A stretch of 64,000 nucleotides of DNA, taken from assembly GCA_903813345.2 (NCBI GenBank), contig CAIIXF020000007.1:6081730-6145729 (forward strand), written 5' to 3'. Position numbers and translations under genes: made by a program. Position 1 is the stretch's first letter; each line of letters starts with the position of its first letter. This DNA is from Owenia fusiformis (taxonomy: Eukaryota > Annelida > Polychaeta > Sabellida > Oweniidae). Positions 36,101 to 59,054 of the stretch are shown piece by piece. Under the pieces are notes generated by a model. The model did not search any database. It was not told the DNA's origin and saw nothing but the letters and a program-made list of their open reading frames with translations.

Positions 36101-39100
36101 ATTGATCTGAACTTGAAACGGTGCCAGTGAAAGTAAGCCCGGATGATATCATAAGTTATGGTATATTTAAATAGTTACTGTTCTACAATTGAATATTCAC
36201 CAAAAAGCTAGGTCAATTAAAAGTATTCCTGGAACATAATTTTGCATTATACAAACTGAAGTTAACTACTCAAATTATATGATAAAGGTGGTCTACAAAC
36301 TTGTGTTTACCAATATTGTTTACTTTTTAAATAATCATTTTTATAGTAATTTTTAACATTGTACATGGGTATTGGATGAATATAGTCCATTGACTTTAAC
36401 ATATAAATGCAAGTATTGCAGTCACTCTGTCTCCAATCGAAAGGACCAGTCTGAAGCGCTGAAATTCAAATGCGCATATGTCAATGGGTATTATCAAATT
36501 TAAGTAAAGGAGTGTGGCAATTTATAATGATAATCTAATATATTAAACAATAATTTTTTTGATGTAAATAGAGGTCAATACTGATAATCTTTGATTTACA
36601 TTTATCATTATTTATGATGATCATAAACTTGTTGAACAATGGATTCACATGAACACTCGTAAACATGACAATGTATTAGCATTAGCTACTTCGTGTACTT
36701 GAGTGTCGGTGTAGATTCGATATGAAGTAAGCTTGTATTCGCGAATGCGCCTGTAACGCCTGTCGTCTACCAGATTGACCTACTATTTTATGACCAACTC
36801 GTTTAGATATGAATGGAATAGTGGCAGGTAAATTGAAATGAGTTGCCCATAAAATAGAAGGTTAATCCGGTAGCCGACCGCCGAAAGTTGCATTCGCGAA
36901 TGCAAGCTAACTATATTGTCTCGATACTGGACTTTTTGGTAGAGGGGGTATTTTTGAATATACTTCTAAATGAACCAAAGTTTCCTTTGTGTATCTTCCC
37001 TTGATCTGCTCAGTTGCTAAGAGAACACAACAACTCATGTTGGTGCAATTATTTTATTTTAATATGAAATAATAATGATAATAATATCAATAAGCAAGTT
37101 GGGTAGTCATATCTGAAGTTGGATTGAAGTTGAAAACTGTTCACAAACAATAATACAATCTGTATATATTTAAATATAAATACTTTTCACATCCACTTGT
37201 TATTGACAATCAGTAACCGTTACATAAAGGATCGTGTTTTTTACAGAATGTTTTCAATAATTGGTTTAAGAAAAAACATGCTGAATTCAGTTCACCATAT
37301 CGCTACCCATCCTTTGATATATACATAGCTATATCATAGCTTAACTATCCTGTTGCTTGCTATGCAACCCCATCCTTTGCATTCTACTAAATATCATATT
37401 TACAATTTTTATTTCACTGTTTTGATTCTCATTTTGTGCTGATTGAATCCGCTCTACATGATAATATAAATCCTGTAATACTTCCCTGGTATACCATCCA
37501 TCCATTATTCGTAGATAAGCTACCCTTCTCCCTAAAGACTTAGATACATTATCACAGGGTGCGTACCAAATTAAGCGAGAAAATTGAACGCACGGGCAAA
37601 TACCAATTCCTTGTGTTGTACCGTACCGTTGTGTAGGTTTAACTATGAAATTCACCGTCAAGTTCACTGGCGATGTAGTTTCAGACATGTGTATATAGAA
37701 ATATCGAGAAACTAGACCACATCTTTCTGAAACGACGAAAACAACTGTTTGCTCACATTTCATCACCCTCGTGTCGTACCGTACCCAGCGCGTTCACTGT
37801 CACGCTTAATTTGGAACGCACCCTGTAACTACGGTGAATCCTAAAACAAGTAGTCCGTTCTCTCTTCTTTGGATACTAAATCAAATTAAAATGTATAATT
37901 CGTTGATAGAATAATACTGTCATATTGTGAAAAGGTATTAATGCATATTTTCTCAGGACGGATTCAAATGAATGTACTTACTGTACGATACAAGTTAAAA
38001 GAAATGTCTACCAAAACCATTGTTTTACTTTAATAAAGATACACTCCCCTCTATAAGTTTGGCAACCTTTTTTCCCCCATTGAACTACGTGTTAAAGCCT
38101 CTTTACCTTTGAATTTTTATTTACTTAACCTGCGATGAAAATACTTATATTATTGATGGAAACGTAATTTGACTTTAATTCCAATACTTCCAAATTTTCA
38201 CAATTTTTTTCCTCAATTACAATAGGTCGAAAATTGATGATAAATTTGATGAATTTTTGAAAATCGACATTCCCATGTTAACCAATGGGAAATGGTAGGT
38301 TTGCCGCAAGTCATATGACAGAATATCCATCTATCCGAGTCCTTGCAAAAAATACGAGTTAGGCAGGCAATTGAATTTGCTAACTTTATTTAACAAGAAA
38401 TTGATATGTTTCTTCAGGTTCAACAAAGTTATAGGGCTTTTAAGTCAAAATTGTTTTTCAAAAAACCTCTCCCATTGAAATAACACAGGAGGCGAAAAAT
38501 TATTTTCAAAAATGACTTTGAAGCGCTGTAACTTTAATATTCATCAAATAAACGAAACACTTAGTGTTCAAAAAAGTTAGACAACTCAATTTTCTATACA
38601 AAAATATTTTTTTGCTGAATCTTTTACTTAAAAGATATCCTGATTTCTGATTTGCCCCGAACCCTCCATTTCCCATTGGATTACATGGGAATGACGATTT
38701 TCAAAAAGTCATCAAATTTATCATCAATTTTTGACCTATTGTAATTGAGGAAAAGAATTGAGAAAATTTGGAGGTATTGGAAATAAAGTCAAGTTACGTT
38801 TCCATCAATAGTATAAGTTATTTCATCGCCGGTTAAGTAAATAAAAATTCAAACGTAAAGAGGCTTTAACACGTAGTTCAATGGGGGAAAAAGGTTGCCA
38901 AACTTATTGAGGGGAGTGTAAATACCATCATCTTGCTCTATAGTATATCATTTCATTTCTCATATAAAACATATACTAGCACTTGACCATCATCGGTGAC
39001 AAAAGCGGCTAAACCCATGCTTTGCTTATCACCCAGCTTTCCACCGACCATATATGGCCATACTCACATTCCGGCCATCTTGGATTACCAGGAAGTAGCG

Positions 39101-42100
39101 TTCCTAGTGATATTAACATATTATGGTAATACTTTCAGGATGGTATAGACAACATGGGATATCAGGTTCGTACAGTGCACCCCACGTATACCAATCACAA
39201 AAGCTAGTTGTTCAGCCACTATGATCTGGTGATGTATTATATGTACATGGTGTTTTGCAGTTGATGTTTGTACTAATATTGTCGTATCATCTGTCCTTGA
39301 TTATATGATCACTAGCCCGGAACGTTCTTGAAATGATATATATACGACAAAAGAAAAGTTTCTATAATTTAAAGAAAAAATGCAGTGTTGTACATTATGT
39401 TCCTGCTTCTCTGATCACTGCCGATTGAAATTAATTACATAACTGATCATGAATGTTTAATGCATGCGACAATCGTAGTTATCTGAAGCAAAATAAAACG
39501 ATACCCGAAGACATTCATATTTCCCTCTTTTGGAAACGGGTGTTCTTGATACCAGAATTGTTGCCATGGCAAATCAAAAATCTAGGAGATACGATACACA
39601 TACATCTATATTAAGATTTAGCAGAATGGAAAAATACACAATCGATACAAAAAAAACCTAAAAACGAAAATGATCCTCCTTGTTTTCGTTGCATTTATCT
39701 TGAGACAAGGTATTTGTTTTTCTGAGTCGGAACGGGTGTCATAGTCCGTAGACAAAATATCAGCATCAAATTCTCCGTCGTAATATTAATTTATTTTCTC
39801 ATTTCAGGGTGATGTCAACCCAGCATTTGAACTAGAGAGCAAAACTGACTTATCAAAAAGATCTGGGGATGAAGCTGAAGAGCCAGAAAAAAGGCAGGCC
39901 TGGGGCGGCCAACTGGAATTCATCCTTACGTGTGTTGGCTATGCCGTCGGATTGGGAAATGTCTGGAGATTCCCCTATCTTTGTTACAAGAATGGCGGGG
40001 GTAGGTCTATATAGGCTTCTTAATTGTCCTCAACTATAGTATTTTCTAACAATTTCGACCCATTAAAAACAAATAAAAAACTTTGTCACCAGACTATTCC
40101 CGAGCTTCATATTCACCGTTGCTTATATACATATGGAACGTTTACCAATTTACCATTGACTCATCGTTTTCAATGCCCTCTCAAATTTTAATGATCGGAG
40201 CTTTTCAAATATCAAATCGGTCAGGAAAAAAACTAATAAACACATTAATTTCGTATTTAACAACATTTTTCATTTCCCAAGATTTAATTCTTCAGAATCC
40301 ATTAAAATCATGGAAAATATTCTGCTAAAAGAGCGTATTCTTCCAACGGTAAAAAAGGTTTGCTTGGATACATTCTCTAACTGATCATTTTAGATATTTT
40401 TGGACATTCACTCTTGTGAATTTTTAAAAACCCATTGTCCATGCATTAATAGTAGCTCAACGGTTAAATGGGGAATAAGGTTTCTGAATGAGATCATTTA
40501 CCAACATGTGATAGTAATATGAAACTACACAATGTAATAGTAGAGACAATGGGCATTTGAGTACAAATGATGCTCAAGTATCTTCTTAATAGGGAGGTAA
40601 AGTTACACATATTTTGACCCCTTTCTCCTGGTGGTCAAATAAACCCCTTTACTCCTAGCCTGGTGAGTTAGTTATAAACGACATGTATATATTTGATATT
40701 ATGTTAATACAAAACTTAACATTTACACGTGGTTGTTTGGGTTGGGGCATAACAGTACCGCTCTCACTTCACTTTTCGGGGACCTAATTACAATTATTTT
40801 CTGTATACCTTTATACTCAATTGGTCCAGTAAACACTACAAATGGGAGAACTATAATCCAAAGAGGTCATAATTCTACACTATCACGTACACGTTTTTAA
40901 ATAAACATACTATTAAAAAATCTGCATGACTTGCTCCAACATTATTACTTTATTCCGATAATATTATATCAAAACGAAAATAATGACTTTACATTTAATG
41001 AAATAAGGGACAGTAACGGGACATTTGCATATCAATTTACATGCGCATCACCTTGTATAAGGTACAATAATCTGCATATTCATTTTACATGTCATGTTTA
41101 TTAATGACTGTAATAGAAGATGGACTCACACATAGCTGATTACAGTAATAGACAATCACCTTACACAAATGTAAATTTCATCGCATCCATTGAATTCAAG
41201 CTGTGTATTTTATCAAAAGGTTCAAGCCTTGAAGTTTTACATTTTCGTTGTACTTATACTTATCATTTATTTGAGCGCCCACTTGATATGTGAGCTACTT
41301 AATATTATTTGAAAATGAGTTGAGACAAATCATAAGATTACAGGATGACTTTTGACAATGATAAATCATTATGTTTAAGTGTTGCATTATCTTGTGACTC
41401 TCGATCTAATGTATTGGATTTACATGACTTATCTAGACTTGTATAGTCATACGACAGTCTTAAACGAGCCACTTTACATGAAATGTCCACTATGTACAGA
41501 TAAAGTTTACAAATGGCGACGACACACGAATGTGCATCATGATAAACCATGACATCTCACTTCTTCTCAGCCCTGAGATGTTTCAGGTGAAACAGAAAGA
41601 TGCTATGCGTATCAGAATGGCGAATACGCAGGACACAAAATAATTCCCCATGTTGGTCGTGAAGTAAGAATTCTGAAAAACCTGGGAATCAGTGTTTCAT
41701 GTGTTAAATGCGATAAATTAACGAATTTAAAATGTCCCTTTTGTATGGAGAATTTTTTAAGTTCAATCCAAATAATTGAAAATATCAAGTACACGTAGCT
41801 GCATTTAACTCGATTGAAGAAAGATATTACCAATTTTATGATTGTTTCACATATCCCTTTCATCTTTGACCGATTTGCAACAATGAAATTTGCAGTTAGA
41901 GTTGAGTCATAGAATCATTGAAGTGTAAGGTCTCGTCTGTATAGGTTGTGATGAAATATGACAGCAAAACAAATCTCCAAACTCTCCCACTTTTGTTATA
42001 TGTCACCCTGTGTTTGCGCCAAAATCAACGCTGGAACTTTATGCAAACCAAAACAAAATAATATTAAACACAATGCAAAAGTGGCAATCTATGCTAGTAT

Positions 42101-45100
42101 CTTGTCACACTAGCCATGCGTGGTAACTAGGCTGGACCATTTTCATAAATTGTGATAAACGATAACATTTGAACTGCACTACACATGTCATTCAAAAGGT
42201 CGAGGATGTTCAAATCATGAGACTTGCCGATCAATATCTAGTGCTCCTTAGATCTTAGGTCATGTTGAGATGTTTATTTACATTCTTATCAAACTACATT
42301 ATAAACTTTCAAGAGATCTCATAAAGGGTGGCGCATATCGTTTAGCAAATCGAACGCTCGTTTCTGGTGTTGCTCACCGTTTAGTATAAAAGGCCCGATT
42401 CCGGAATAGTACTCTGGGGTTCACAGGCTCGAGATCGTTGTGTCAACACCTCTGTTATGCCTTGGTCACATTTGCTCCGATTGTACGGCGCCCGGCCGAT
42501 TGAGTATTCTGTTCAAAATTGAATACAATATTGAACAAAACATCGGAGCATATGTGACAGGCATAATATAGCGTTTTAGTATATTATTGATCATCACACA
42601 TTTATAAAAGGGAGATTTTCATTTTGACGTTTCGGGATATTCTATTTGTGTTTGATTGACATCTAAAATTGCCCCATAGTACACAGCTTGGCATATGAAA
42701 TATCATCCAAATGAAACAAAGCAGTTCTAATACAAGGATTTATATTGGCTGTTATACATGAATTCTTTGAACAATTACTTTATCTGCTAAGAAAGTTTCT
42801 ATTAATTGGATTTTACAAAACTCCCCTTATTTCTTAAAAATGGACTGGTCTAGTTGACTCGCCTGGAGTCGCCATATTTTTTTATACGGGAAGCTTAGCG
42901 GAACCCTTTAACGAGGCGAAATTGACTTAATATATGACTGAAATCGGGAAGACAAAATTTGACATTCACGAACAAAATTGCTTGTGAAAACTATTTACAA
43001 AAGTGTTCCAGAGACTAATCGACTTGGCTAAGGTTTTATTTGAAGATACATTGCCTTATTAAGCAGGTAGAGAGGGGCATACAGAACACGGAAGCAAATG
43101 CAATGTTGAAAATTTTATATATTTCCGTTTGAAAATGTTATTTCATGTCACGTAGTCCAGTGTTCCATATGGGGATTATATACATACTTTACTTGTTTAC
43201 ATGGACGTAAATCAATACATGAAATCTGCAGTCTTCCGGGTTTTATCATCTGGGTTTGTATTGTCTTATTGGGGCTTTCCGACTTTGAAACAAACATTAC
43301 TTTAAAGGATTTGTGTCTCAGGAACATTTTTGTAAATAGTTATTTTAAACAATTCTGAGAGAATATCACATATTTTTGTCTTCTCAACTTCAGTCATGAA
43401 TTGCGTCAATTTTGCGTGCAAACATTGGGTGGACGTTGTCATGACCGGGTGCCCAAACGTGTCAGGAACACATAGATACTCGAATGATGTTGATTGGACA
43501 TCAGGGTGCAGAGAAATCGTAATTTTACTGAGTGGCTTCACGAAAAAAATAAGCAGCATTATAAGCCACCTTAAGAACTTTTTTGTTGTTGTCAAGATAT
43601 CGAAGATTCCCTTTCTGTTTTTCAACATTGATTCTAATGACTTTAGTTTGAATAAGATGACCCAACATATTATGGTCTTGGAATTGGTACAATGGTTTTT
43701 GATTTGTGAGTTACGGAGGGATGTGCGAGACATCTTTGTGCTGTCAGATCAACAGGGTATGTCTGTGGGTTTGTCTTTTACGGATCCTTCACTCAAAGGG
43801 CTCCATTTATTTCTCAATTTAGAATTGAAGTACCCTTGGACCTAGCATGCGTTTATGTTTCATTGCCATCAATTACATTGTTATTATTATGCAAGCACTT
43901 CATTTAGTTTAGTCATAATTGCCGAGTCATTATTGTTAATATACCAGGTATAATAGTAGTCTATGACGTCTATGAAGTGATTATCTTAGTATCCTAAATC
44001 CAGGGATAGTATTCAAAGAGACCTACTGTTGGCAATCGTTTTGAATAATATACCAAATGACGTGGAATCGCGGTATATTTGTCAACTATTATTTATATGA
44101 CTAATATAAGTAAAGAAATTATCACATCATTATTTCTGATATCTTCCCAACATTTAAATACACATTTTATAATAAATTTTCTATATATATATATATATAT
44201 ATATAGCAAATTACTAAACGAAGAGAAACTCGGTATTCTTACAAGAAACTTGCTCTATAGACTAAATAGATTCCATATTTGATATTCCTTTATAATGTAC
44301 CCTTTGCATATTAGTTCGACTTCTCGTTTTCTAAAAGAGAGCTACGTGCAGGGTATTAATGGCGTCACAGTGTTTTTAAAAAATGATTCTTCGATAGGGT
44401 ACTCGAGTAAGCTTGTTTTTAATTCTGTTTATACCTCTCAACAATTATCTAACAGCAATCGTGGTACTTATGTCATTTTGACTGAATTGGTTAAAAGTGT
44501 TTTTTATCTTATCAACTATAAATCGTATTATAACTTATGAACATTTTAGATTCTTCAACAAACAATCTTCGACGTGCCATGACAATGGCTATGCTAATAA
44601 ATCAAAAAGCCCTCCATACGAGTATTTGTAAATAATCGTATTAGAGAGTAATGTAATTAAGTTATTTTTCTTATTTGTAGGAGCCTTTTTAATCCCGTAT
44701 GTTATAATGCTGGCCTTCGTTGGACTCCCTTTGTTTTTCCTCGAGCTGTCTTTTGGCCAGTTCACCAGCCAAGGCCCCCTCTCAGTATGGGCTGTTAACC
44801 CTCTCTTCAAAGGTAAAGACTGTTACATATTATGGATTAAAAATTGCATTAACTAATCCCAAATTAAATGAAATCTAAACCCAGATGGATATGGACATGA
44901 ACTTGTTGATGTTCATCAGAATATTTTGCTTTTAGGTTTAGGTTATTCAATGGTAATGGTGTCATTGTTGATTGGGCTCTACTATAACGTCATCATCGCC
45001 TGGTGCATCTACTTCTTCTTTGCTTCCATGCGCTACCCATTACCCTGGACTTCATGTGATAGGGCCAATTGGGCTACAGAACGATGTCTTGACAGTTCAG

Positions 45101-48100
45101 AACCAACAGGAAACGGTAAGTTATCTGGTAATATTATCTGGCATATGGGCGGACACAATTTAGTTTTAACCAATCACTACGTTATCATAAATACTAAGAA
45201 TATTATTTAATCTTACTCATTTTGCTAAACCTTCCAAAGATATATTGTCTTTAGGAAGTTTTCCCTCAACATAGGCACAAAAACACTTAAATGTTCACAA
45301 CTGCATAAGATCTTTTGTTTTGATTTAATAGTTTCTTTAGTTTGTAGGAGCTTGTCACTTTTGATATTTTTTAATGTTGTTTGTAGTTTCAAATATCACA
45401 ACCACCATGTCAACGTTGACTACAGCTGCTCCAATTGACCCAACGTTCAACAGGACAACCCCAACGGAGGAATACTTCTAGTAAGTGCAAAAGACACATG
45501 CGTATTCGTCTATTATATCCAACTGTTTGCACTTCATTCATATGCAGTCTAATGAGATGTATTTAGATTAAAAATATATGAAAATCCAAATAAAACGGAA
45601 AACAATTAAATTATTTAACAATTGTTTATACCAGCTAGCTTTACATATTTGGTATAATCTTACTTGGGGAATATAATTAATACATAATGATATAATGTAT
45701 ACAAGCCAATTTGCAATAATGTGTAAACCTGGACTTGTTTTTCAATGTGTACACGTATGTAATGTTGTATATGTATAATATGTGTAATAATTTTATATAA
45801 ATGTGTCTAATGTATATTATTTTCTTAGCATCAACGTACTTGGCCTTACCAGTGGACTTGACAATATGGGTGGTGTTCGTTGGCAACTGGCACTTTGCCT
45901 GTTGGCTGCCTGGCTAATAGTTTTCCTCGTCCTCATCAAAGGAATTTCTTCTCTTGGAAAGGTAAATACAGAAATGTCTTATAATTTCCAAAGAGGTCTG
46001 AAACGAACCGCACACTATTTTGCAGGAATATATTATATTATAAAGTCGCAATGCCACTTAAAAATGATCGATGCAATGCTCATATATAACTACATTTCCA
46101 AGGGACAATGTCGACTTTTGCTTTATTATTCACTCCTCTTATTCAAGGTTGTGTACTTCACCTCTATCTTTCCCTACGTGTTGCTGACAGCCCTTCTCAT
46201 AAGAGGCTGCCTATTACCGGGGGCGGGAGAAGGAATTCGCTTCTACCTACAGCCGAATATTACCAGACTAGCTGATGCCGAGGTACGTGCATTGTAAATA
46301 CACAATGGGTCAAAAATGATGTTGTACAAGGTAGTCGTATACATGTTCTTACATATTTTTGCACATTTCCTCCATTTCACATGCATACCTGCTCATTCAT
46401 TCCGTATCTTAGTATCAGGCTTGATGAGCCATGGTTAACAATGTTGAATTTGTCGCAAACAGTTCAATAGTGTCACGTTATAATTTTGATTTATGCGGGT
46501 TTACCTTTAATGGTTTGTAGAAACATGATCAATTAAAATCGACTCCAAACGACAATTACATTATATACACCTTAACTCTATACACCAGCACTCCTTTTCA
46601 TTCAGGTTTGGAGCGACGCTGCCGTCCAGATCTTCTATTCCCTAAGTGCATGCTCTGGAGGTCTCATTGCTATGGCAAGTTACAACAAATTCAGCAACAA
46701 CTGTCTAAGGTAATCAGCGCATGAAGATATTCATTTCAATAACTTAGAGTTCAGTTCCTAAAAGCCCGTTGATGTCTTGATACGACCAGATGGCAATCTC
46801 AGCTACATCGATAGCCTAAATACCAAGTAAATTATGAAAAGGGATTTGATTTTGAGCAAACTTATTTTTGTGGGCTGTCATATTGCAAGATAACTGACGG
46901 GAATGATGGCCTCGCATCATACAAGAATAGCTGAAGAAACTTTGATTTTCATTTTGCCTGTGAATAATGCCTTAATGCGCAATATGTACCTGGCCGACAG
47001 TAAACATAAAACACGTCTGCATTGGGAAATAGGTTCTTGAAAGTTCAAAGGACCATAACATCGTTTACCTTTATTACCAAGGCAAAAGGGTGGGCAATGT
47101 TATATTCAAATAGTCGTAATAATAATTTCATGACAGAACAGAAAATCGCTTTTAGGAACTGTCGAACTAAAAGAATTAAGATTGCTAACATGGACTAATT
47201 TAAAAAGTATTTTGCTTTCTGTTTAAAGTTGTGGTGTATCGTCATAACCTTCACTGACACTAATAAAATAATGGTTCTTACATTGAAGAGTTTCTGCATG
47301 TTTTGCTTTTTTATCGTTTTAGGGTTTGGAGGCTATCTTGCTTTTTTGTGTTATTTGCATGTTGCTTTTAGGTGTTAAGTAGACGCTTTTTTATTTCAGA
47401 GATTCCATCCTTGTACCGTGCATCAATTGTTTCACGAGTATTTATTCTGGGTTTGTCATATTTGCCGTCTTAGGCTTTATGGCAGATAAAAAAGGGGTTA
47501 GTGTTGGAGAGGTTGCTGAATCCGGTAAGAACCATTCACAAACGCCAAATATAGTTTGTATGCTGATTGATGAATTACAATAATTTCTTTACACCTATAT
47601 GTTTGCCTTTCTACTGATTTCGGGATCCCATTTAAACCGCTCCAAATCTTTGTAGTTAAGATTACATTTATATTTGCATGCACATCCATATCTAATACGA
47701 CATTCCATTGACCCAATCTTGTACCCTTAATGGCCGTGGTTCGATGTATACGACCTACCATGCAGGTGACTAAAATGGGGTTCGACTGCTGATTTGTGAA
47801 TCGCAATAAATTATGTTTGCATGTTTCATATATTAGGAATCCTACTAAGACCCCTTATCAAGCATTAACAAAGATAAAGATAACCAATATACCTTTTGCA
47901 TGCACAACCTTATTGACTAACATTGCACATTCCAGAGACTCCATTCTTGTACCTTTGATTAACTGTGGGACAAGTATATATTCCGGTTTCGTCATATTTG
48001 CCGTCTTGGGCTTTATGGCAGAAAGAAAGGGGGTTAGTGTGGGAGAGGTTGCAGAGTCTGGTAAGAAAGATGGACATGCCAACATTGTGCAATGTTTGAA

Positions 48101-51100
48101 TTGCGTAATTAGAGACATTGACATACAATCAGAAATTAATCTAAACAATAACTGATTATGTTACGATAATAGTTAAGATGAATGTGCATGATCTATGTTT
48201 CTACAGGGTGTCAAATAAATATCTCCCTCATTCATTTCAAAAGTATGAACTTTTGTACAAGTTTACATATTTTTTCTTTTAGCGTATTCAGCTGTTGGAG
48301 AATAGCAAGTTGCATGTCCATATCTCGCTTAAAACTTCAGTTGTTTATCAATTATTTAACTTTGATAGTCAATGGGCCCATCATCTGCCACATTTAGGCC
48401 GACAGTTCATGCGAGTTTAATGTTTTCAGAATATTTCCAATATTTCTTTTGCATTAGTAAAGCATCAAAATGTCTTCTCAATACATCTCGAGAGGCTTTT
48501 TGGAATAATTAGTTCCACCAGATTCTCTTTCCAGTAGGACATCCACCCGATCTTTTAGGAACGTCCCTATATATGCTTTGGTCCACTGAGGTTGGGGTTA
48601 TTTGAGGGGTATTTGTCATTCCCAAAAAGTCAACGTTTGATGATTTTAACAACTGTTGTGTCAAGAGATGTCTTTCATGCTTACAATATTTATGCCCAAA
48701 CTGCCAAGACATTGTTCTTTCTTCTTCTGATTCTAATTACGGATACATGTACTACTTTTGAAAATATTAATATCCTTCAACTGCAATTTAATTAAATACT
48801 CTGTGATTTTGATGTTAAAATACACGGCGCCCAAGGATATGACTGTAATCTAGTCCGCTAATATCCCCATTCCATCAATTTTGGACAAAAAATGCCATCC
48901 TCCCTTTTCATTTGTGATCCATTTTAAATGGTAAATATTGTTCCAGCATGCGTAGCTTCCCATTTCATCCTGCCAATATATCTATTTGAATCATCATGAA
49001 TAATGAGTGGCATAACAAGTGACTATATATTGAACTCTAAATTTGGAACTATTGACTTTTTATTAGATTGAAACTGTTATCAAAAGCAGCAAAATGTACC
49101 AATATTCATAAAATACTGCAAACCTTTACTTTTTGCTTCAAGTGTAACTTTTTTATTCTGTTTAGTTCATTATTCCTTTGTAGGTGCTCTAACACCTTAA
49201 TGGGGATTAATTAGGTATATAACATGTATGATATCATGTGTTTATGTTAAGGATAAAGGGGGGGGGGCATATTTATCTGACACCCTGTATATTTCTTTAT
49301 CATATCCCTTTTAGTTATTCTATGGTGTATAGCTGACTGCGATCTGTGTGACAAATCATAATGGAATCGTCTCGACAAACTTATCTATCTTCTCTCTTTC
49401 CTTAAAACATGTTGATGAAACGATAATTAAATTCTTCACTGTTTATTAAGTCTTTTTATAACATACCTATGATGATGTATAGTGCAAAGTGTACACAAGA
49501 CAGCGGGCCAATATAAGTTTTGAAAAGCCCGCGCCCGCTAACTTTCTGATTGGTCAAGGCGCTGACGTCATAACCAATCAATCGAAGATAAAACTGCGCG
49601 AGCAATTTTTTTAAACTCACTTCAATCATTTTCAAACCATTTGTTTGTCAATTCTATAAGAAAACGGTACTCTCTGACCAGTCTACATCATCATAGGTAT
49701 GTTATAAATCGTTTATGTCACTATCGTGGCACATATGCCCTCGGTTCTCAGAGATCAATGTCCCTCCCAAGGTCGGTCCATATATCACTGAGACCTCGGG
49801 CATATATGCCACGATAGTGACATAACCTCTAACTACTATATTTCAGGTACTCCACCTTAGTACCCTTTGCAATAATGCCATCTTAATTAGATGATCTATC
49901 TTTCTTGCATGTAGGACCTCATTAAACAACTTTGCCAATTTCAGGGACTCCCTTATTGTACCATTGATAAATTGTGGTACGAGCATATACTCTGGATTTG
50001 TCATATTTTCTGTATTGGGTTTTATGGCAGAGAGAAGGGGAGTGTCTGTAGACCGGGTAGCTACCAGTGGTATGTACTCATGTAGTGTGTGCCAACCTTG
50101 CTTATAATCATCCTTGAATTGTTTCCTTTATTAACCTCCCAAATGATATCCCTAAGGTACCTGGATAGACAGACATTCATAAAAAATATCATAACAAATT
50201 AAACTCTACAATGAATTTTAGGGACTCCATAATTGTTCCATTGATAAATTGTGGAACAAGTATCTATGCCGGGTTCGTCATATTTTCTGTGTTGGGTTTT
50301 ATGGCCGATCGCACAGGAAGATCCGTTAAGGATGTAGCAGCGAGTGGTATGAAAGTATATTTGCGAGCACACATAGAGCTTTGCATATTACTTTTTGTGT
50401 TTTGAAATGTTGCACAATGTGCTTTCTGATTAGACATCAGCTTGTAATACGTGTGTACATATATGATAGGGGCATTGTTTTGTACATACACTTTGTACAG
50501 TTGCTTCTTTGTACGGCACGTGTTTAGCCACAAGGCAACCATAAATGATTGGTACCTAAAGTGCTATGAAAATTAATGTTTAGCGAAGTGTCAAAGACTG
50601 CTGAAAGAGCATCACTTTTAAATCATTTTTGGTGTACTCATAAAATCAATGTAATCACCACTTTTCGGGTGCTTTTTATAGGCCCAAAATCAATGCATGC
50701 TTTTAATGTTAGCAAAATATGTTTTCTGTCGTTGCCTTTTGGGATTTTTGAGACAGTTAAACATGCGTCAACATAACAAAAAGTTGTGCTTTCTGATTTG
50801 ACATCAGCTTGTATTACGGGTGAACATACATGATAGGGGCATTGCTTTGTACATTCATTGTGTACAGTTTTGCTTATTTGTACGGCATATGTTTAGGCAC
50901 AGGGCAACCGCAGAGGATTGATACCTTAAAATGCTATGAATATTAATGTTTAGCGAAGTCTCAAAGACTGCTGAAAGAGCACAATTTTTAAATCATTTTT
51001 AGTGTATTTGTTGATTTGAAGATTCGATGGACTTGGTTTTGAGACAGTTAAACGATCAACAGATCTATTGATTGCGATTTACCTTGACACTAGCCTCACA

Positions 51101-53872
51101 AGGCATAAGACTCTCTTAAGACATGTTGAGAAAGAACTAGGTGTCATTCTAATGTCGATGGTTATATACGTTCCTGGGCATTATTTAGCGTATGGAGAAA
51201 GTCAAAACTCCTCCTTTTTACCGTTTATAATTATGGGGACTTAACTATATGTAACTACTATATATGTCACATTCCGGTTCATGTATTCAATGAGAAACTA
51301 TCATATTTTTCCCTCCCTCTACTCCCAAACTTCTACAATGCTATTCCATTTTTTACAATAGTCGTAAGCCAAATGGTTGCTTAAGCGTCTTTATATGCTT
51401 CATTGTGCTCCTTAGACAAGTTTCAAGCATATGACTCGTGTTGTTAAACTGTTGACTATAATTATATAGTGCATTAATCACATTACTATGACGAGGGATG
51501 TAGTTCTTATTTAATTAATACTTATTCATAAAATACATTTTATCACCTCATACTTGAATGCTTACTTTAATCAATGAAATCACATTTACTATTTAGCTCA
51601 TCAAATTATGTGGCCATAAATTATTTATTTCATAAAATATTTACACATTATATGAAGTGTAGTTATAATAGTAAAATAGTATATATAATTGATCTGTTCT
51701 TCCTCTTGTTTTAACATTTGTATTTACAATTTCAGGACCAGGTTTAGTTTTTGTGGTTTACCCAGAGGGTTTAGCACAGATGCCCGGGACAACAGTTTGG
51801 GCAATCTTGTTTTTCTTTATGATGATGTGTCTTGGATTCAGTTCAGAGGTACGATGTGTTTAACTATATAAACTGCATATATGGGAGATCTTTATCATTG
51901 CTCACTTACGACATTTACCTGGAGGCCACAAAAATCAATGTACTCTACAATAATTCTAATACTAATAATACTATAAAAATCGTAAACCCTTTAGAATATT
52001 AAATATGATTATGCAATATACATAAAAGTATCAAGAAAAGTTTGTGTGATTATTCACTGTTCAGAATCATAATAACTGCAAAGATAAAAAGGAAAATCAT
52101 ATATTGTCTGATCTTTGTTCGTCTGTTATTCAAACAATATTAAAACAATACAATGTACTGCTTTTTTATGTCGCTGTTTGCATTATTCCAGTTTTCTATC
52201 ATCGAATGCGTATTTAGTGCATTCAGTGATGAGTTTCCACAGTTGCTTAGACGAAACAAGTGGGCACCGATAATCTTCAGGGGTATATGTTGTGCTTGTT
52301 TTTTCCTCATCGGGTTGCCCATGGTAACTGGGGTACGTATTCATTTTTTCAATTTTCAATTTTTCAATTTTGATAATGATGCTAATGAACAGTACCTTTA
52401 ATTGTAAACCAAAATGTGTTTCCAAATGTGTAAGTTTCGAATAGTTCTAGTATATAAAGATTTTGAAATTAGTATCGAACATTTATTTAACAGGGAGGAT
52501 TCTACCTGTTCAACATCGTGGATTCCTATACAGGCGGTTTTCCATTGTTGTTCGTCGGATTGTTCGAACTGATAGCACTTGTATGGATATATGGTGAGCC
52601 TACATATCGTGTATGAGGGTCGGGATATTGGTATTAGGCAAATACAATGCATATCTTATTTATATACGATGACATACTAGCTAATCTATTCACTTATATA
52701 TATGAATTAAAGTAGTGGGGTCGAGGATGTAAGAGTTCATTAGTTTTTTATGTTTTTAGGTTATCACAAATTTAAAGACGACATTGAAATAATGTTGGGA
52801 AAGAGGCAGTTGATATACTTTCATATTACATGGCGTTATATCGCTCCACTTCTCCTATTGGTAAGTATTATAGTATTTTTTTATAATATTACTGTATATT
52901 AAACAAGAATTTATAACTCTAATTTTATTTTGCATTTATTACATTTGTATATATATGTATTGAGGTAACAAGATAGTTCATAGCATTTCTTGAAATTGAT
53001 AGCAAGCAAAGTGTATATTAATGATTTACCTTTTCTGAAAGATAAAACACTTTGTGTAATTATGTATATTCAAATAATGTTGTTTCTTAATGATGTCATC
53101 GAAATGGATGGACCCACAATACTCGAGAACTTAAAATCGTGCATCAGTCAATGCGAGATGAAATATTGTATATGCTTTTTTTGATTCAGGCAGTCATAGT
53201 GTTCAGAAGTATACAATACAAGACCCAAACCCTGGATACCATATACGGCCTTTATCGTTACCCACCAGGCGGAACTGCACTTGGATGGCTGATTGTGACG
53301 TTTGCGATAATTTGGATACCTTTATTCTTCATCGGGACATTCTGCGTCAAAGGTGGTGGAATGGTAAGTTTGAAAAACAATGACTCAATATGGTTTACCA
53401 ATAATATATTTATTTGGTTTATACAAACGCAGTATTAATTGTAAGATATAACGTGTAAATATTCATTCCATGACACAATATGGGAATATTTATTATATGG
53501 GACTGATTTTCCAATCATTGCTCCAAGAGCAAACTACATTTTGAAAATGGATTGGACATATTTATTTTGTTCAGTAGATGTACACCGTTGTAAAACATTT
53601 CTATCGTTGATGACATGCGTTTCCCTAGTCTAACCTTATTGTTTTAGTTCTGCTGGAAAAGCATGCAGGCTACTAAAAACTGGCGACCACGTGATCGATC
53701 AGATAGGGAAGGAACAAAATATGATGACAGCTTACATCAGGACGTGTCAACAATCAGTTCGGGACATATCAATTCAAATGGAACGGTACCACCTACGTAT
53801 GAAGAGGTGGAATCAGCCACGGACTATTATTCTGAGAAGCCAAACACATATGCTACTTTGCAACAAGAATGA
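33112..53872 (+). CDS. SLC6 family Na+/Cl- dependent neurotransmitter/amino-acid transporter (15 coding exons, four alternative exon 9)
   Basis: A plasma-membrane, Na+- and Cl--coupled symporter with 12 helices. Joining exons 33112-33156, 39808-40000, 44681-44812, 44936-45115, 45387-45480, 45829-45961, 46148-46282, 46606-46709, one of four exon 9 copies, 51736-51848, 52192-52332, 52494-52593, 52760-52860, 53190-53363 and 53648-53872 gives 664 residues, normal for SLC6, with all phases agreeing. Residues 59-80 hold the TM1 signature [14 protein letters not shown] and NGGG. TM3 has Tyr140. Extracellular loop 2 has Cys164 and Cys174 and sequons at Asn183, Asn186 and Asn205. TM1 has Gly, not Asp, at the amine-contact position, so the substrate is probably an amino acid or related zwitterion. 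TM6 ([11 protein letters not shown], 314-324) is most like glycine transporters but has Ser321 where they carry Trp, and TM8 has Ser416 where most animal members have Asp. Exact substrate unknown. Confidence 0.95.
36727..36911. mobile_element. Small palindromic MITE in SLC6 intron 1
   Basis: The end gtaagcttgtattcgcgaat and the complement of the other end, gttagcttgcattcgcgaat, match. Similarity continues inward through ccagattgacc / ccggattaacc and ctattttatg, so nearly the whole 185 bp can fold back. Confidence 0.7.
37341..37766 (-). other. Unassigned 141-codon open frame, minus strand
   Basis: A long frame for this AT-rich region. Its first two thirds overlap the MITE at 37554-37826 and its last third (residues about 80-141) reads like ordinary protein ([19 protein letters not shown]). 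I do not recognise it and see no matching exon nearby. It may be chance, or a decayed nested sequence. Confidence 0.2.
37554..37826. mobile_element. MITE in SLC6 intron 1
   Basis: The ends acagggtgcgtaccaaatta and the complement acagggtgcgttccaaatta are inverted; the match runs about 27 bp (taagcgaga / taagcgtga). Total about 273 bp, with no coding function of its own. Confidence 0.75.
38042..38918. mobile_element. 877-bp TIR element (cactcccctc family, copy A)
   Basis: The ends cactcccctctataagtttg and its complement (aagtttggcaacc) are flanked by TA at 38040-38041 and 38919-38920. The arms are about 255 bp (38042-38296 and 38665-38918), so most of the element folds into a hairpin. A second, closely similar copy is at 54587-55964 just beyond the 3' end of the same gene. 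Non-autonomous; TA target suggests the Tc1/mariner group. Confidence 0.8.
39808..40000 (+). CDS. SLC6 exon 2 (N-terminus and TM1)
   Basis: Residues 16-79 plus the first base of 80. The acceptor is ttattttctcatttcag and the donor g|gtaggt. It contains the family entry motif WGGQLEFIL and the TM1 unwound segment Gly63-Leu64-Gly65, with Asn66, Trp68 and Arg69 in their usual places. The acidic stretch DEAEEPEK lies just before the membrane. Confidence 0.95.
42457..42565. mobile_element. About 109-bp hairpin MITE
   Basis: The ends tatgccttggtcacatttgctccga and tcggagcatatgtgacaggcata are inverted with few mismatches, and gaatacaatattgaac-type sequence lies in the middle. Too short to code. Confidence 0.65.
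43302..43845. other. Segment open on both strands (143 and 149 codons), unassigned
   Basis: The plus frame 43396-43845 and minus frame 43302-43733 overlap almost completely. Neither translation is recognised and neither shows a clear splice-linked partner. Long open frames on both strands are unusual for this composition, so one may be a remnant of a coding sequence nested in SLC6 intron 2. Confidence 0.25.
44180..44205. repeat. (TA)n microsatellite
   Basis: An uninterrupted run of alternating T and A in SLC6 intron 2. Confidence 0.9.
44681..44812 (+). CDS. SLC6 exon 3 (TM2)
   Basis: Completes Gly80 and encodes residues to 123, from AFLIPY through TM2 ([19 protein letters not shown]). The acceptor is ttcttatttgtag and the donor g|gtaaag. 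Both phase and residues continue exon 2 exactly across NGG|GAFLIPY. Confidence 0.95.
44936..45115 (+). CDS. SLC6 exon 4 (TM3 and first half of extracellular loop 2)
   Basis: Residues 124-183. It contains Tyr139-Tyr140 of TM3, the second of which is the conserved substrate-contact tyrosine, and the loop cysteines Cys164 and Cys174 expected to form the disulfide conserved in animal SLC6 proteins. The donor is g|gtaagt. Confidence 0.95.
45387..45480 (+). CDS. SLC6 exon 5 (extracellular loop 2, glycosylation sites)
   Basis: Residues 184-214, rich in Thr. Three N-glycosylation sequons fall on or next to this exon: Asn183 (NVS, split by the intron), Asn186 (NIT) and Asn205 (NRT). The donor is a|gtaagt. 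Confidence 0.9.
45829..45961 (+). CDS. SLC6 exon 6 (TM4)
   Basis: Residues 215-259, [15 protein letters not shown] then TM4 and the GISSLGK turn. The acceptor is ttattttcttag and the donor g|gtaaat. Ends in phase 0. Confidence 0.95.
46148..46282 (+). CDS. SLC6 exon 7 (TM5)
   Basis: Residues 260-304. It contains [10 protein letters not shown] and the loop [16 protein letters not shown], both strongly conserved in the family. The donor is g|gtacgt, phase 0. Confidence 0.95.
46606..46709 (+). CDS. SLC6 exon 8 (TM6)
   Basis: Residues 305-338 plus two bases of Arg339. It contains [20 protein letters not shown]. Ser321 stands where glycine transporters have a bulky Trp (from memory of the family). 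This exon ends in phase 2 and is the invariant partner for each alternative exon 9. Confidence 0.95.
47400..47524 (+). CDS. SLC6 alternative exon 9a (TM7 cassette, divergent ion-site version)
   Basis: First of four 125-nt versions of the TM7 exon. Acceptor cttttttatttcag, donor g|gtaaga. It keeps Asn348 (Na1) and Ser352 (chloride), but has Cys346 and Phe350 where the other three copies have Leu and Gly, in [14 protein letters not shown]. The C-terminal loop [11 protein letters not shown] is shared with 9b; the two differ at 4 of 43 residues. Including 9a together with another copy shifts the frame. Confidence 0.9.
47936..48060 (+). CDS. SLC6 alternative exon 9b (TM7 cassette)
   Basis: Second 125-nt version, acceptor cattgcacattccag, donor g|gtaaga. 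Helix [17 protein letters not shown] has the usual small residue at 350. The loop is identical to 9a. If spliced after 9a, the reading frame meets a TGA after seven codons. Confidence 0.9.
48204..49287 (-). mobile_element. Tc1/mariner-group relic between alternative exons 9b and 9c
   Basis: The ends cagggtgtcaaataaatat and, inverted, cagggtgtcagataaatat are flanked by TA on both sides (48202-48203 and 49288-49289). Total 1084 bp. On the minus strand at 48509-48712 the words [12 protein letters not shown] fit the segment just before the last catalytic residue of IS630/Tc1-type transposases, but the frame is broken. The insertion explains why the 9b-9c intron (1.88 kb) is far longer than the 9a-9b (411 bp) and 9c-9d (152 bp) introns. 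Confidence 0.65.
49455..49709. mobile_element. MITE, about 255 bp, in the 9b-9c intron
   Basis: The ends tataacatacctatgatgat and its complement atcatcataggtatgttata are inverted copies of about 22 bp. The interior contains gcgctgacgtcataacc. It is non-coding. Confidence 0.75.
49714..49828. repeat. Long hairpin between 9b and 9c
   Basis: The arm ttatgtcactatcgtggcac continues with atatgccctcggt, and the opposite arm is acctcgggcatatatgccac continuing with gatagtgacataa. About 33 bp pair with one or two mismatches around a 45-bp loop. It could be a separate MITE or a fold in the pre-mRNA next to exon 9c. Confidence 0.7.
49945..50069 (+). CDS. SLC6 alternative exon 9c (TM7 cassette)
   Basis: Third 125-nt version, acceptor tttgccaatttcag, donor g|gtatgt. 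It encodes [18 protein letters not shown] and then [12 protein letters not shown]; the loop ends VDRVATSG. Na1 Asn348 and chloride Ser352 are kept. Only 152 bp separate it from 9d. Following another copy, it meets a TGA after seven codons. Confidence 0.9.
50222..50346 (+). CDS. SLC6 alternative exon 9d (TM7 cassette)
   Basis: Fourth 125-nt version, acceptor aatgaattttag, donor g|gtatga. It encodes [18 protein letters not shown], with a loop [11 protein letters not shown] that most resembles GABA-transporter-type members. It has Ala at 355 where the other copies have Ser. After another copy it meets TAA at the fourth codon. It differs from 9c at 8 of 43 residues. Confidence 0.9.
50411..51052. 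repeat. Tandem duplication in the intron after exon 9d
   Basis: Bases 50411-50640 and 50790-51005 are direct copies (gtgctttctgattngacatcagcttgta, atgataggggcattg, aatgtttagcgaagt, caaagactgctgaaagagca); the words gagacagttaaac near 50752 and 51042 extend it. The period is about 375 bp. No additional TM7 exon lies inside either copy. Confidence 0.8.
51736..51848 (+). CDS. SLC6 exon 10 (TM8)
   Basis: Completes Gly381 and encodes residues to 418: [12 protein letters not shown], then TM8 ending CLGFSSE. Ser416 and Ser417 align with the Na2 pair; the first is Asp in most animal SLC6 proteins and Thr in bacterial LeuT. Acceptor acaatttcag, donor g|gtacga, phase 0 at the end. Confidence 0.95.
52192..52332 (+). 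CDS. SLC6 exon 11 (TM9)
   Basis: Residues 419-465, [20 protein letters not shown] then TM9 with IGLPMVTG. Acceptor tgcattattccag, donor g|gtacgt. If exon 9 is skipped, the shifted frame ends at a TAG early in this exon. Confidence 0.95.
52494..52593 (+). CDS. SLC6 exon 12 (TM10)
   Basis: Residues 466-498, [15 protein letters not shown] then TM10 to WIYG. The motif (G)GxYxFxxxDxY is conserved across SLC6. Donor g|gtgagc. Confidence 0.95.
52760..52860 (+). CDS. SLC6 exon 13 (TM11 start)
   Basis: Residues 499-532, [15 protein letters not shown] then the start of TM11 ([10 protein letters not shown]). Acceptor tgtttttag, donor g|gtaagt, phase 0. Confidence 0.95.
53190..53363 (+). CDS. SLC6 exon 14 (end of TM11, loop, TM12)
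   Basis: Residues 533-590. It includes the conserved [14 protein letters not shown] region and TM12 ([13 protein letters not shown]). Acceptor ttttttgattcag, donor g|gtaagt. Confidence 0.95.
53648..53872 (+). CDS. SLC6 exon 15 (cytosolic C-terminus, stop)
   Basis: Residues 591-664 and TGA. A hydrophilic tail with PPTY at 638-641 followed by EEVE, a PPxY site of the kind bound by WW domains of Nedd4-type ubiquitin ligases. Several later tyrosines (650, 651, 658) could be sorting or phosphorylation sites. The function of these motifs here is inferred. Confidence 0.95.
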   Translation, partial: FCWKSMQATKNWRPRDRSDREGTKYDDSLHQDVSTISSGHINSNGTVPPTYEEVESATDYYSEKPNTYATLQQE

Positions 53873-53990
53873 ATTACTTGTCTTACATGTACATAATAGC
53901 AATTCGTGTATATTTTGGAATCCTGTATTTTATTGTAATCCTATAATTGTGTTATAGAGACGTGTTGAATTGTACAGCTGTAACTGATTG

Positions 53991-53996: not shown

Positions 53997-54586
53997 ACAA
54001 TGATGGACTCCCGCTGTATATATATTATTAATTATTTATGGTTACCATTCTTATTATTTGGGAGAATTCAAACATTTTTCACCCATGTTTGCACTTTAAA
54101 TCCATAATAACCCCTGTCACCAATTTATAACATATCGTGAATTTTTTGGGAGATATTGTATTATTTGTGATTGCAAGAAACAGATTGGTAGGTCAAGTGT
54201 ACATGTTGCTTATAATTTTGTCAGCCCTATAGATCTGATTCTGCCTTCAATATACTTGGTTGTCACATATTTGCTATTTTGGACAAATGTTTCAAGATCA
54301 AATAGTTTTTATGAACATTATAAAAGTGCATTCTACTACTTCTGTATTAAAATCAAAAAGTACTTCACTGTCAGTGTTTGTTGTTTCGTTTCTTACTGGA
54401 TTATTAGAGCCCTTGGATGCATAATACTCGGGACTGGTTCGCTTTTCAGTAACCTATTGTTACTATTAATAAACGGATAAAATATTTGGATACAAATCGA
54501 CCTCCTTCTTGGTGAAAATGATGAAAATAAGAATTTCCATGAGAGGACCAGTGATGTTTACATTGGAGTGAAATACATCTAAAATA
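53997..54586. other. Intergenic, AT-rich
   Basis: Nothing recognised apart from an open 74-codon plus frame at 54256-54480 that is hydrophobic and resembles no known family. Confidence 0.4.
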
Positions 54587-55964
54587 CACTCCCCTCCATA
54601 AGTTTGGCAACCTTTTTCCCCCATTGAACTACGTGTTAACGCCTCTTTACCCTTTAATTTTTATTTACTTAACCTGCGATGAAAATACTTATACAATAGG
54701 ATAGTTTCTAAATAGCAGAAAAATCAATGAAATCTCGTGCTGCCATCTTTTATTCAGCTTTTAACTCTGGCTAGAGCTCCATTCACTTACATGCTAAAAT
54801 CTTGGAAAAGTGGCTTAATTTCATGATTTATCAAAGTGTGTTTGTTGAATCTGTATAAAACTTGAATGATATACCACATGATGACCCTGTTTATGAACAT
54901 GTTGTGATTAAACATGCTAATGTTGATTGACATACAAATAATCCACGATTTTAAAGAATTTTAGCATTGCATCTATGGACATTTGGCCCAACTTTTTTTA
55001 AATTGTCATAGAAAATTATTCAAATTACATAACTGTGTAAATCAAAGCTATTTTAGGAGAAAACATTCCACTGAATTCAAATATACCATTTAAAAGAAGG
55101 TAATGTAAGTCATTAGAGGTCTAATATGTAAGTCTCTTAAAATCTCACGAAAAACGAGATTTAGCGAGATTTCAAAAGCTATATGGAAACTATACTATTG
55201 ATGGAAACGTAATTTGACTTTAATTCCAATACCTCCAAATTTTCACAATTTTTTTCCTCAATTACAATAGGTCAAAAATTGATGATAAATTTGATGCATT
55301 TTTGAAAATCGACATTCCCATGTTAACCAATGGGAAATGGTAGGTTTGCCGCAAGTCATATGACAGAATATCCATCTATCCGAGTCCTTGCAAAAAATAC
55401 GAGTTAGGCAGGCAATTGAATTTGCTAACTTTATTTAACAAAAAAATTGATATGTTTCTTCAGGTTCAATAAAGTTATAGGGCTTTAAAGTCAAAATTGT
55501 TTTTCAAAAAACCTCTCCCATTGAAATAACACAAGAGGCGAAAAATTATTTTCAAAAATGACTTTGAAGCGCTGTAACTTTAATATTCATCAAATAAGCT
55601 AAACACTTAATGTTCAAAAAAGTTAGACAATTCAATTTCTATATAATTTTTTTTTCTTTGCTGAATCTTTTACTGAAAAGATATCCTGATTTTTGATTTG
55701 CCCGAAACCCTCCATTTCCCATTGGATTACATAGGAATGACGATTTTCAAAAATTCAACAAATCTATCAACAATTTTCGACCTATTGTAATTGAGGAAAA
55801 AAAATTAGAAAATTTGGAGGTATTGGAAATAAAGTCAAGTTACGTTTCCATCAATATTATAAGTTATTTCATCGCCGGTTAAGTAAATAGAAATTCAAAC
55901 GTAAAGAGGCCTTTACACGTAGTTCAATGGTGGAAAAAGGTTGCCAAACTTATGGAGGGGAGTG
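54587..55964. mobile_element. TIR element (cactcccctc family, copy B) with nested insertion
   Basis: Same ends and arms as 38042-38918, flanked by TA (54585-54586 and 55965-55966), highly similar throughout. A further roughly 500 bp (about 54694-55200) is inserted in its left arm. The two family members bracket most of the SLC6 gene in direct orientation, 16.5 kb apart. Confidence 0.8.
54694..55200. mobile_element. Nested TIR element inside copy B
   Basis: This sequence is absent from copy A. The ends caataggatagtttctaaa and the complement of the right end, caatagtatagtttccata, are inverted, followed inward by gaaatctcg on both sides. Exact borders are uncertain by a few bases. No coding function was seen. 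Confidence 0.65.
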
Positions 55965-56949
55965 TATATTCTGATCTTTCAGTTGGCATGGGAATATAGA
56001 CTAGAATCATATGATGATAAAAGCCTTTAGAAAGCGAAACTACTTATATTTCAACGAGCAGGCAAGAGACCTATATCAAAATACTCCCTTATATATAACA
56101 AAAGATGTATGAAATTTAACACGGTGAACGAGGTGTCAAAAGGCACCAATAAGACAATTAATTAAAATACTATTCTTCTTCCCTTAACTAGTTCAAACAT
56201 TACGATCAGTGTTAATCCCCACATAAATAGTTGTGGTCAACTTGTCATTGTGCCAGGTTGGAGCTCTGCCAGCAAATCTAGTGTTACGATAATTGTACTT
56301 TTTCTGGTTTGATTAACTTTATTGAACTAGTACTGTCTAGAACCAATGATCACCACTCACAATCATCTCCCTGTCAAATTAGACTTGTTAGTCAATGGTT
56401 CAGACAGCGGGTTTCTATCACACAGAAAACAGTATGCAATTTCTGTACTAAATCCAGAAGAACCTTGAAGATTGTTGCATAACATCCAAACAGGATCACT
56501 ACAGATAACTGATAAATCATATGATATAGTTTCAACAATGTGGAAGGTACACCTCCACAATAGTTAAAATGGAACAATACATTTCTGATATACTAAGTAT
56601 AGTTCACAACAAACAGTATAATATAATTCTCGATAGTACCAACAAAACCCATCATTGGGATTGGTATCACCTAATGTCAATGAAATGCAAAGATCATCGA
56701 GACTATTTTTTCAAAATTCAAATGTGATATAACATCAGTATCTATTTGGCATCCAGCATTCTCTCACAAGTGAATTATCTTCTGCTGCTAAAGAGGAACA
56801 TGTTATTTGTTGTCAGATGTGATTGAAATACTGAAAAATATGTTTCCATATAACATTGTATGTATCAATGTCAATTATATAGTGTTATTTAGTAAACTGA
56901 TTATTGTATTTGCAAAGGTTTTGAATATATAAGCACTAGTGCTAAAGGG
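55965..56949. other. Intergenic stretch
   Basis: No gene found. Overlapping 61- and 65-codon minus frames near 56363-56577 are unrecognised. Confidence 0.4.
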
Positions 56950-57938: not shown

Positions 57939-59054
57939 ATGTTCGTCCTTGCACTGATACAAGGTAACTACGAATATCGAACATGTAGGACTCCCACTAA
58001 CACAAAGTACATCAAACAAGGAATTTATCGATACACGAATCTCAAAAGGCAGAAGGGCGATGATAGCGTAACATATAAACATAAACATATCGGAACAACC
58101 ACAAGCAATAACAATCCCACAAATCCCCTGACAGCATCCAAACTCTACTGGTCAATCTGTGTACCAACCATGACGTATGGATTGAACCTTCTCCCTTTGA
58201 AAGACACTGACTATGATAGAATGGAGACTGCACATCGGAATATTGCGAAAAAATTACAAGGCTTACCACAAAGTACGAGGAACCCAGCCTGTATACAACA
58301 GCTAGGATGGTCTGACTTAACGTCTAAAATTGTCGTTGACAAAATGATGCTTATCTGGCAACTTTTAACACTGCCCATAAATAACATATACAAAGTCATC
58401 GCTATAACACGAATAATATGCCACAGGTCTCGTGCACTATCTAGCATATCGCCGATAGGAAATTGTTTGAAAGTCGCCGAGAATCTTGGAATCCAAAACC
58501 AAATATATGATATCATAGATACTGGAATCATACCATCCAAAACAGTATGGAAAAGGAACATTAGATCAATAATGTACGACAAAGCACTCTGGAGTTGGAG
58601 ACTAAAATGTATGATGTACACAAACATTCATTTATACAAGAGTGTTGTGGAATTTCAAAAGCCCAACCTATGGTGGGAAATCGCATCTCATAATAGTCAA
58701 CTAGTCAAGATATGCAAAACAATGATACTACTCCTCACGGGAGAGGGAAATTTGAATGCAAACACATCTAATTGGGGAACGTCATATGACAAGCACAGTA
58801 GAAGTTTATGCAACGCATGTAAGTCTGAGACTGAAACACTTGAACATCTAATTCTTAATTGTGACGCACATTAACAAATGAGAGATATAATCCAAAAAGA
58901 GTTAAACGCAAATAGTATCCCCGAAAACTGCTCAAATGAGATCAAATTAGCAATCATTTTTGGGAAAGATAAACTATTAAAGATAGATAGCTATGTAACG
59001 ATATCAAAGACGATTTATGCAATGTACACTAGTAACGATAGGATGATACTCTGA
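57939..59054 (+). pseudogene. 5'-truncated LINE, reverse-transcriptase C-terminal part
   Basis: The frame from 57939 reads KLYWSICVPTMTYGLNLLPL and ETAHRNIAKKLQGLP, the region after the reverse-transcriptase core of CR1/L2-like non-LTR elements, then a C-X2-C-X8-H-X4-C cluster (CNACKSETETLEHLILNC). A TAA at 58872-58874 stops it after 311 codons, but the same frame continues for 59 more codons to TGA at 59052. The catalytic core and endonuclease are missing, so it cannot transpose. A 3' tail to about 59310 ends near an aataaagatac word typical of LINE 3' ends. Confidence 0.8.

Follow-up and report, generated by a model that had tools for sequence, protein, structure and literature searches.

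Four tandem, probably mutually exclusive TM7 exons in a glycine-transporter-like SLC6 gene of Owenia fusiformis

Arrays of mutually exclusive exons are already known in transporter genes. In SLC12A1 (NKCC2), the variants of exon 4 code for a membrane segment and change the affinity for ions. The subject of this study is a gene of a different transporter family, an SLC6 gene of the annelid Owenia fusiformis that carries four tandem copies of the exon encoding transmembrane helix 7 (TM7) and the start of extracellular loop 4 (EL4). This cassette lies within a 64,000-nucleotide stretch of DNA analyzed here (the window; GenBank assembly GCA_903813345.2, contig CAIIXF020000007.1, positions 6,081,730 to 6,145,729, forward strand). 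Like the cassette gene, SLC12A1 is a solute carrier gene in which tandem exons number more than two, its own being mutually exclusive in splicing; it differs in fold, family, and helix, and in having three copies versus four here. The third mutually exclusive exon of SLC12A1 is named in PMC9741552.

Human clusters of mutually exclusive exons resemble the cassette in several respects: homologous exons stand in a row, substitutions between them are mostly conservative, and exon lengths are in many cases no multiple of three (377 of 629 clusters, PMC5740500). The transporters named in the accessible portions of these two papers are SLC25A3, SLC39A14, and SLC12A1, and no SLC6 gene is named there. 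Dscam-type arrays also contain more than two mutually exclusive homologous exons; they are controlled by docking-selector pairing (PMC6071210), whereas pairing in the cassette did not rise above shuffled sequence. The closest solved structures to the whole cassette protein were glycine transporters 2 and 1 (GlyT2 and GlyT1, encoded by SLC6A5 and SLC6A9; best E 2e-169), with which the TM7 segment is collinear. We know of no TM7 cassette in mammalian GlyT genes. Limited searches of the open-licence literature, outside which most subscription papers lie, found no SLC6, glycine, or neurotransmitter transporter with mutually exclusive or duplicated exons. This agrees with a previous sequence-only reading of the window, which knew of no described SLC6 gene with a four-way TM7 cassette. 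As far as searched, the SLC6 family and the TM7 helix are new among transporter arrays.

The presence of four TM7 exons was confirmed. All are on the forward strand: exon 9a (47400..47524), exon 9b (47936..48060), exon 9c (49945..50069), and exon 9d (50222..50346). Each is exactly 125 nucleotides (nt) long, open, and bounded by an acceptor and a donor in the same phases (2 in, 1 out). The cassette stands between two invariant partners, exon 8 upstream (TM6; 46606..46709) and exon 10 downstream (TM8; 51736..51848). On all these points, from coordinates to neighboring exons, the sequence-only reading was correct. The host gene spans approximately 39154 to 53873 on the forward strand, and its exon model is open end to end with AG/GT at every internal boundary. 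The 9d isoform matched the PF00209 profile over positions 1-522 of 524 (E 4.9e-196), a full-length match to the SLC6/sodium:neurotransmitter symporter family. Assembly artifact or haplotype copies were ruled out: the four exons are just 64-82% identical and repeat families scarcely reach beyond the exons.

The four copies are old and under coding constraint, as measured between the copies and against paralogs of this one genome. Nucleotide differences between copies fell mainly at third codon positions (e.g., 1/3/19 by codon position for 9a-9b). The ratios of nonsynonymous to synonymous substitution rates (dN/dS) were 0.064 (9a-9b), 0.132 (9a-9c), 0.097 (9b-9c), 0.115 (9b-9d), and 0.100 (9c-9d); dS was saturated for 9a-9d and about 1 or more in the other five pairs. 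For each of the six pairs, the observed amino acid changes were fewer than in any of 20,000 random-substitution simulations. Thirteen columns were at least 80% conserved over 34 paralogous TM7 exons (L033 excluded). Exon 9d keeps all 13, and exons 9a, 9b, and 9c keep 12, their single departure being residue 17 (S for A). Acceptors of 9a, 9b, 9c, and 9d ranked 20, 4, 14, and 4 of 45 reference sites, and donors ranked 32, 40, 18, and 15 of 45; all were within the reference range.

These data bear on the possibility that one or two TM7 copies are in use while the rest are relics, decaying exons still in frame. The low-ranking acceptors of 9b and 9d would fit decay of this kind. However, five pairs combine a dS of about 1 or more with dN/dS of 0.06-0.13, and all four exons keep nearly all conserved family residues, an open frame, and both splice sites. 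Relic duplicates are thus an unlikely explanation.

Inclusion of any one TM7 copy produced a 653-residue open product in a frame check of the exon model, while each of the 11 multiple inclusions terminated early, as did the full skip. The sequence-only reading had reached the same result, including the number of sense codons translated from a second copy before the stop (seven for 9b and 9c, three for 9d) and termination of the full skip at a TAG in exon 11 (52192..52332), here located at 52215. Its 664-residue protein was not reproduced, and the first coding exon of the present model (39154..39165) is uncertain. With an exon length of 3n+2, zero or several copies would shift the frame and end translation prematurely, ahead of several exon junctions, and the message would presumably be removed by nonsense-mediated decay. 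The four single-copy messages would encode transporters alike except in TM7 and the start of EL4. Because the copies are constrained and every non-single combination gives a premature stop, mutually exclusive use of the four exons is the best reading and, judged from sequence, a likely one.

Several results speak against it. The acceptors of both 9b and 9d are weak (each rank 4 of 45), and among decoy sites of the cassette introns, 12 of 173 AGs scored at or above the weakest cassette acceptor and two of 219 GTs at or above the weakest cassette donor. The search for docking/selector pairing was negative for both flanking introns: 46 of 60 shuffles were as good upstream and, at a coarser step, 57 of 60 were as good downstream.

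The frame logic would also suit a productive/unproductive switch, in which frequent double inclusion or skipping lowers expression through nonsense-mediated decay and the choice of isoform is secondary. All multiple inclusions and the complete skip do stop early, upstream of several exon junctions. This account leaves four constrained, diverged coding versions unexplained, however, as one poison exon would suffice, and we consider it very unlikely.

Differences among the copies were located at TM7 residues 8, 12, 17, and 23 and at loop residues 30, 31, 32, 34, 37, 38, and 41, with conservative I/L changes at residues 4-5. Residue 10 (N), which we take to be a Na1 ligand, and residue 14 (S), which we take to be a Cl- ligand, are identical in 9a, 9b, 9c, and 9d. 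The sequence-only reading proposed that splicing could change ion coupling. In its favor, TM7 supplies these presumed ligands, and residue 12, which is F in 9a and G in the other three, sits between them. Such a switch of Na+ or Cl- coupling is highly improbable, since both ligand residues are invariant and residue 12 varies widely in paralogs too. Of that interpretation, mutually exclusive splicing is favored by frame logic and constraint, whereas the ion-coupling switch is not supported.

The states of residues 8, 12, and 23 in the copies all occur among the 34 paralogs; Ser at residue 17 (9a-c) is rare there (1 of 34). The bulk of the remaining variation is in residues 30-41, at the start of EL4, where the charge (charged residues counted) is approximately -1 in 9a and 9b and +1 in 9c and 9d. 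Under mutually exclusive use, copy choice would tune both the charge of the extracellular lid and packing beside the Na1/Cl- site, and through them rate, affinity, or allosteric sensitivity, but not ion stoichiometry. Tuning of this kind is preferred over a change in ion coupling because the ligands are invariant and the variation lies beside them and in EL4.

The transported substrate should not be read from the family match. The TM6 Trp of GlyT2, presumably its glycine-selecting residue, is absent (SAAWGG in GlyT2 vs SACSGG here, with Ser at the aligned position), so glycine selectivity cannot be assumed; the gene is GlyT-like in overall sequence only. In TM8, exon 10 encodes LGFSSE where GlyT2 has LGLDTM, placing a Ser at the position of an Asp that we take to be a Na2 ligand. 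A paralogous locus, L002, likewise has Ser (LGFSSQ).

Of the 40 matches to the 9b peptide in a whole-genome search, four were the cassette copies and 35 were other TM7 loci; the remaining one (C12:458741) is part of a minisatellite in locus L001. The 35 paralogous loci comprise every non-cassette locus among the 40 matches; the fetched stretch spans both neighboring exons in 29 of them and just one in six. A cassette common to all SLC6 genes was ruled out, as the fetched stretches of all 35 loci lacked any further full-length copy of the TM7 exon. Loci L001 and L013 carry repeated fragments of the TM7 exon and nothing full-length besides the one.

The TM7 exon is exactly 125 nt between AG and GT in 32 of the 35 loci. 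An automatic flag gave 33, from which L007 was dropped by hand: TM7 coding is continuous with TM6 in L007, L002, and L033, and the apparent acceptor of L007 is coding sequence. The 125-nt length and the phases are therefore those usual for TM7 exons of SLC6 genes in this genome; they are inherited and are no special feature of the cassette. It follows that a tandem copy is frame-locked from birth and that the frame lock is older than the cassette. The cassette would have been built by successive tandem duplications of such an ordinary exon in a glycine-transporter-like SLC6 gene. A tree of 39 TM7 segments (42 columns) was poorly resolved; it supported 9a with 9b (96/91) and the joining of 9c (90/84), and left 9d unplaced. 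With all four copies grouping together in 20% of bootstrap trees, the tree neither establishes nor rules out a single origin.

At 10 of the 35 paralogous loci, minisatellites whose unit repeats an exon edge including the splice site were seen within introns or next to them. In gene-strand coordinates these included L001 8097-8683, L013 1196-2986, L023 1054-4582, and L029 2292-2680; the others were in L011, L018, L019, L030, L032, and L033. Similar 'mirages' are reported from amphioxus (PMC3087553).

The cassette introns also contain a candidate regulatory motif, UGCAUG, which we take to be the Rbfox site. On the forward strand, copies were found 44 nt 5' of exon 9a (47356..47361, with another at 47295), 39 nt 5' of exon 9b (47897..47902, with others at 47675 and 47818), 3' of exon 9b (48185), and 39 nt 5' of exon 9c (49906..49911). 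For exon 9d, the motif occurs 348 nt 3' (50694) and is absent within 100 nt 5'. A further copy at 48311 lies in a probable transposon in the intron between 9b and 9c (48202..49289, no strand assigned), with inverted ends TACAGGGTGTCA...TGACACCCTGTA. Altogether, the five cassette introns (4,526 nt) hold nine UGCAUG, compared with a dinucleotide-shuffle mean of 2.05 (P 0.001) and with 1.3-1.4 predicted from its frequency across the paralog loci (213.9 kb; P 9e-6 to 2e-5). One UGCAUG was counted in 11 other introns. Of 33 paralog TM7 flanks, among which that of L007 is coding, one had the motif within 100 nt upstream. The upstream flanks of 9a, 9b, and 9c share TTGCATG, whose hexamers TTGCAT and TGCATG (one heptamer) were the sole hexamers at like offsets in three of the four upstream flanks; 229 of 5,000 quartets drawn at random from the paralog flanks had any hexamer in common. 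Rbfox-like exons with an RNA recognition motif (RRM) were found at C9:4004839-4007447, the best two pieces being 78 and 79% identical.

As a rule, an upstream Rbfox site represses inclusion of an exon and a downstream site enhances it. An Rbfox-type protein may help to choose among 9a-9d. As UGCAUG lies about 40 nt upstream of 9a-c and not of 9d, high Rbfox would be predicted to disfavor 9c and leave 9d as the default; the effect on 9a and 9b would depend on their downstream sites too. No mention of Rbfox turned up in a term search of PMC11802352.

A number of findings count against regulation of this kind. The motif was picked after the flanks had been inspected, was second among hexamers after TTGCTT, and has an unadjusted P of 3e-5 that would be lost on correction across all 4,096 hexamers. 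Shared ancestry of the flanks makes the quartet null lenient, and one of the nine copies is inside the probable transposon. The best RRM piece has an in-frame TAG within its reported match, perhaps from overrunning the exon end, and the Pfam Fox-1 C-terminal model (Fox-1_C) gave no match. The idea that UGCAUG generally accompanies SLC6 cassettes was rejected: a sister-gene TM8 cassette (below) has five against 3.4 expected (P 0.25), and there is none in the 1.55-kb stretch of a TM2 array. Overall, Rbfox-type control of the TM7 cassette is plausible and is put forward tentatively.

Exon-by-exon genome searches revealed three further tandem arrays in other SLC6 genes: TM8 in five copies, TM6 in two, and TM2 in two. 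The TM8 array (C1:14657791-14663632; loci L003 and L041) has five exons of 113 nt each, starting at 14657791, 14659378, 14662212, 14663173, and 14663520. It follows a single TM7 exon and precedes a TM9/10 match at 14669146. All five have AG acceptors, and all have GT donors except the first copy, which has GC. Copies 1 and 2 are old: between the two, and between either of them and the other copies, 67-78 of 113 nt match, and the differences are mostly at third positions. Copies 3-5 are recent (101-109 of 113 nt identical), and with scant or no third-position excess among their few differences, constraint is not demonstrable individually for those three.

The TM6 array is on the reverse strand of C6 (1382323-1382220 and 1381700-1381597; L043). 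Its two exons, of 104 nt each, are identical at 82 of 104 positions, with differences of 2/1/19 by codon position. The TM2 array (C7:11027966-11028506; L042) contains two exons of 132 nt each, starting at 11027966 and 11028375, identical at 90 of 132 positions with differences of 11/4/27. A length of 132 nt is a multiple of three, which leaves this pair without a frame lock. It belongs to the gene of locus L002 (C7:11.03 Mb), whose TM8 is the nearest to that of the cassette gene (82%) among the loci compared.

Four genes and four helices would imply at least four separate origins. Frequent tandem duplication at exon edges, together with the frame-locked lengths of 125, 113, and 104 nt, would mean that full duplicates of exons of these lengths are born mutually exclusive. 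Searches with TM1, TM4, TM5, and TM9/10, in match lists unchecked per locus, recognized no further array beyond minisatellites and a region on C5; the TM9/10 search was weak, with 11 matches in all. At C5:31895790-32070074, five TM8 matches occur in steps of approximately 40 kb with TM1, TM2, and TM4 matches at the first alone, representing tandem gene copies that have decayed or else a single head with several tails. Two regular tandems with a spacing of about 114-125 nt, ten weak TM5-like matches at C3:4722388-4723605 and nine TM4-like matches at C2:23624989-23626026 (inside a 372-codon open frame), are probably minisatellites of coding pieces.

The remaining coding exons of the cassette gene, all on the forward strand, were placed as follows: the putative first coding exon (ATG GGA TAT CAG; 39154..39165), assigned from an in-frame ATG followed by GT; exon 2 (TM1; 39808..40000); exon 3 (TM2; 44681..44812); exon 4 (TM3; 44936..45115); exon 5 (extracellular loop 2; 45387..45480); exon 6 (TM4; 45829..45961); exon 7 (TM5; 46148..46282); and exons 12-15, up to the stop codon (52494-52593, 52760-52860, 53190-53363, and 53648-53873). 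The intron 3' of 9d contains a tandem duplication of approximately 368 nt (50418-51006; 82-91% identical). The gene is bracketed by two repeat copies about 95% alike (38034-38920 and 54580-55967) with inverted ends of approximately 260 nt, the second of which has an insertion inside. Farther downstream, a 311-codon open frame (57939-58871) with a sub-threshold match to the PF13966 reverse-transcriptase zinc-binding profile (E 1e-4) is probably a retroelement remnant. A scan of the whole window against Rfam gave no match at gathering scores. The window sits on contig C7 of a 498-Mb assembly in which C1-C12 are chromosome-sized (31.9-62.2 Mb) and C13 is 0.66 Mb.

SLC6 transporters control the levels of transmitters, amino acids, and osmolytes, and are drug targets. 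With the rest of the protein constant, four natural versions of TM7 and early EL4 would provide a ready-made experiment on how this segment, lying beside the Na1/Cl- site and the extracellular lid, affects transport rate and affinity. Taken together, the arrays suggest that in this genome the SLC6 family may repeatedly have made transmembrane-helix exons interchangeable (TM7 x4, TM8 x5, TM6 x2, TM2 x2), as a modular family tuned by splicing in which at least the TM7 array is under Rbfox-type control; we regard this as a real possibility that falls short of probable. If four genes do carry independent arrays at four helices, they would make a good case for studying why certain exons and families are prone to arrays, with a testable answer: a frame-locked ancestral exon length combined with frequent local duplication.

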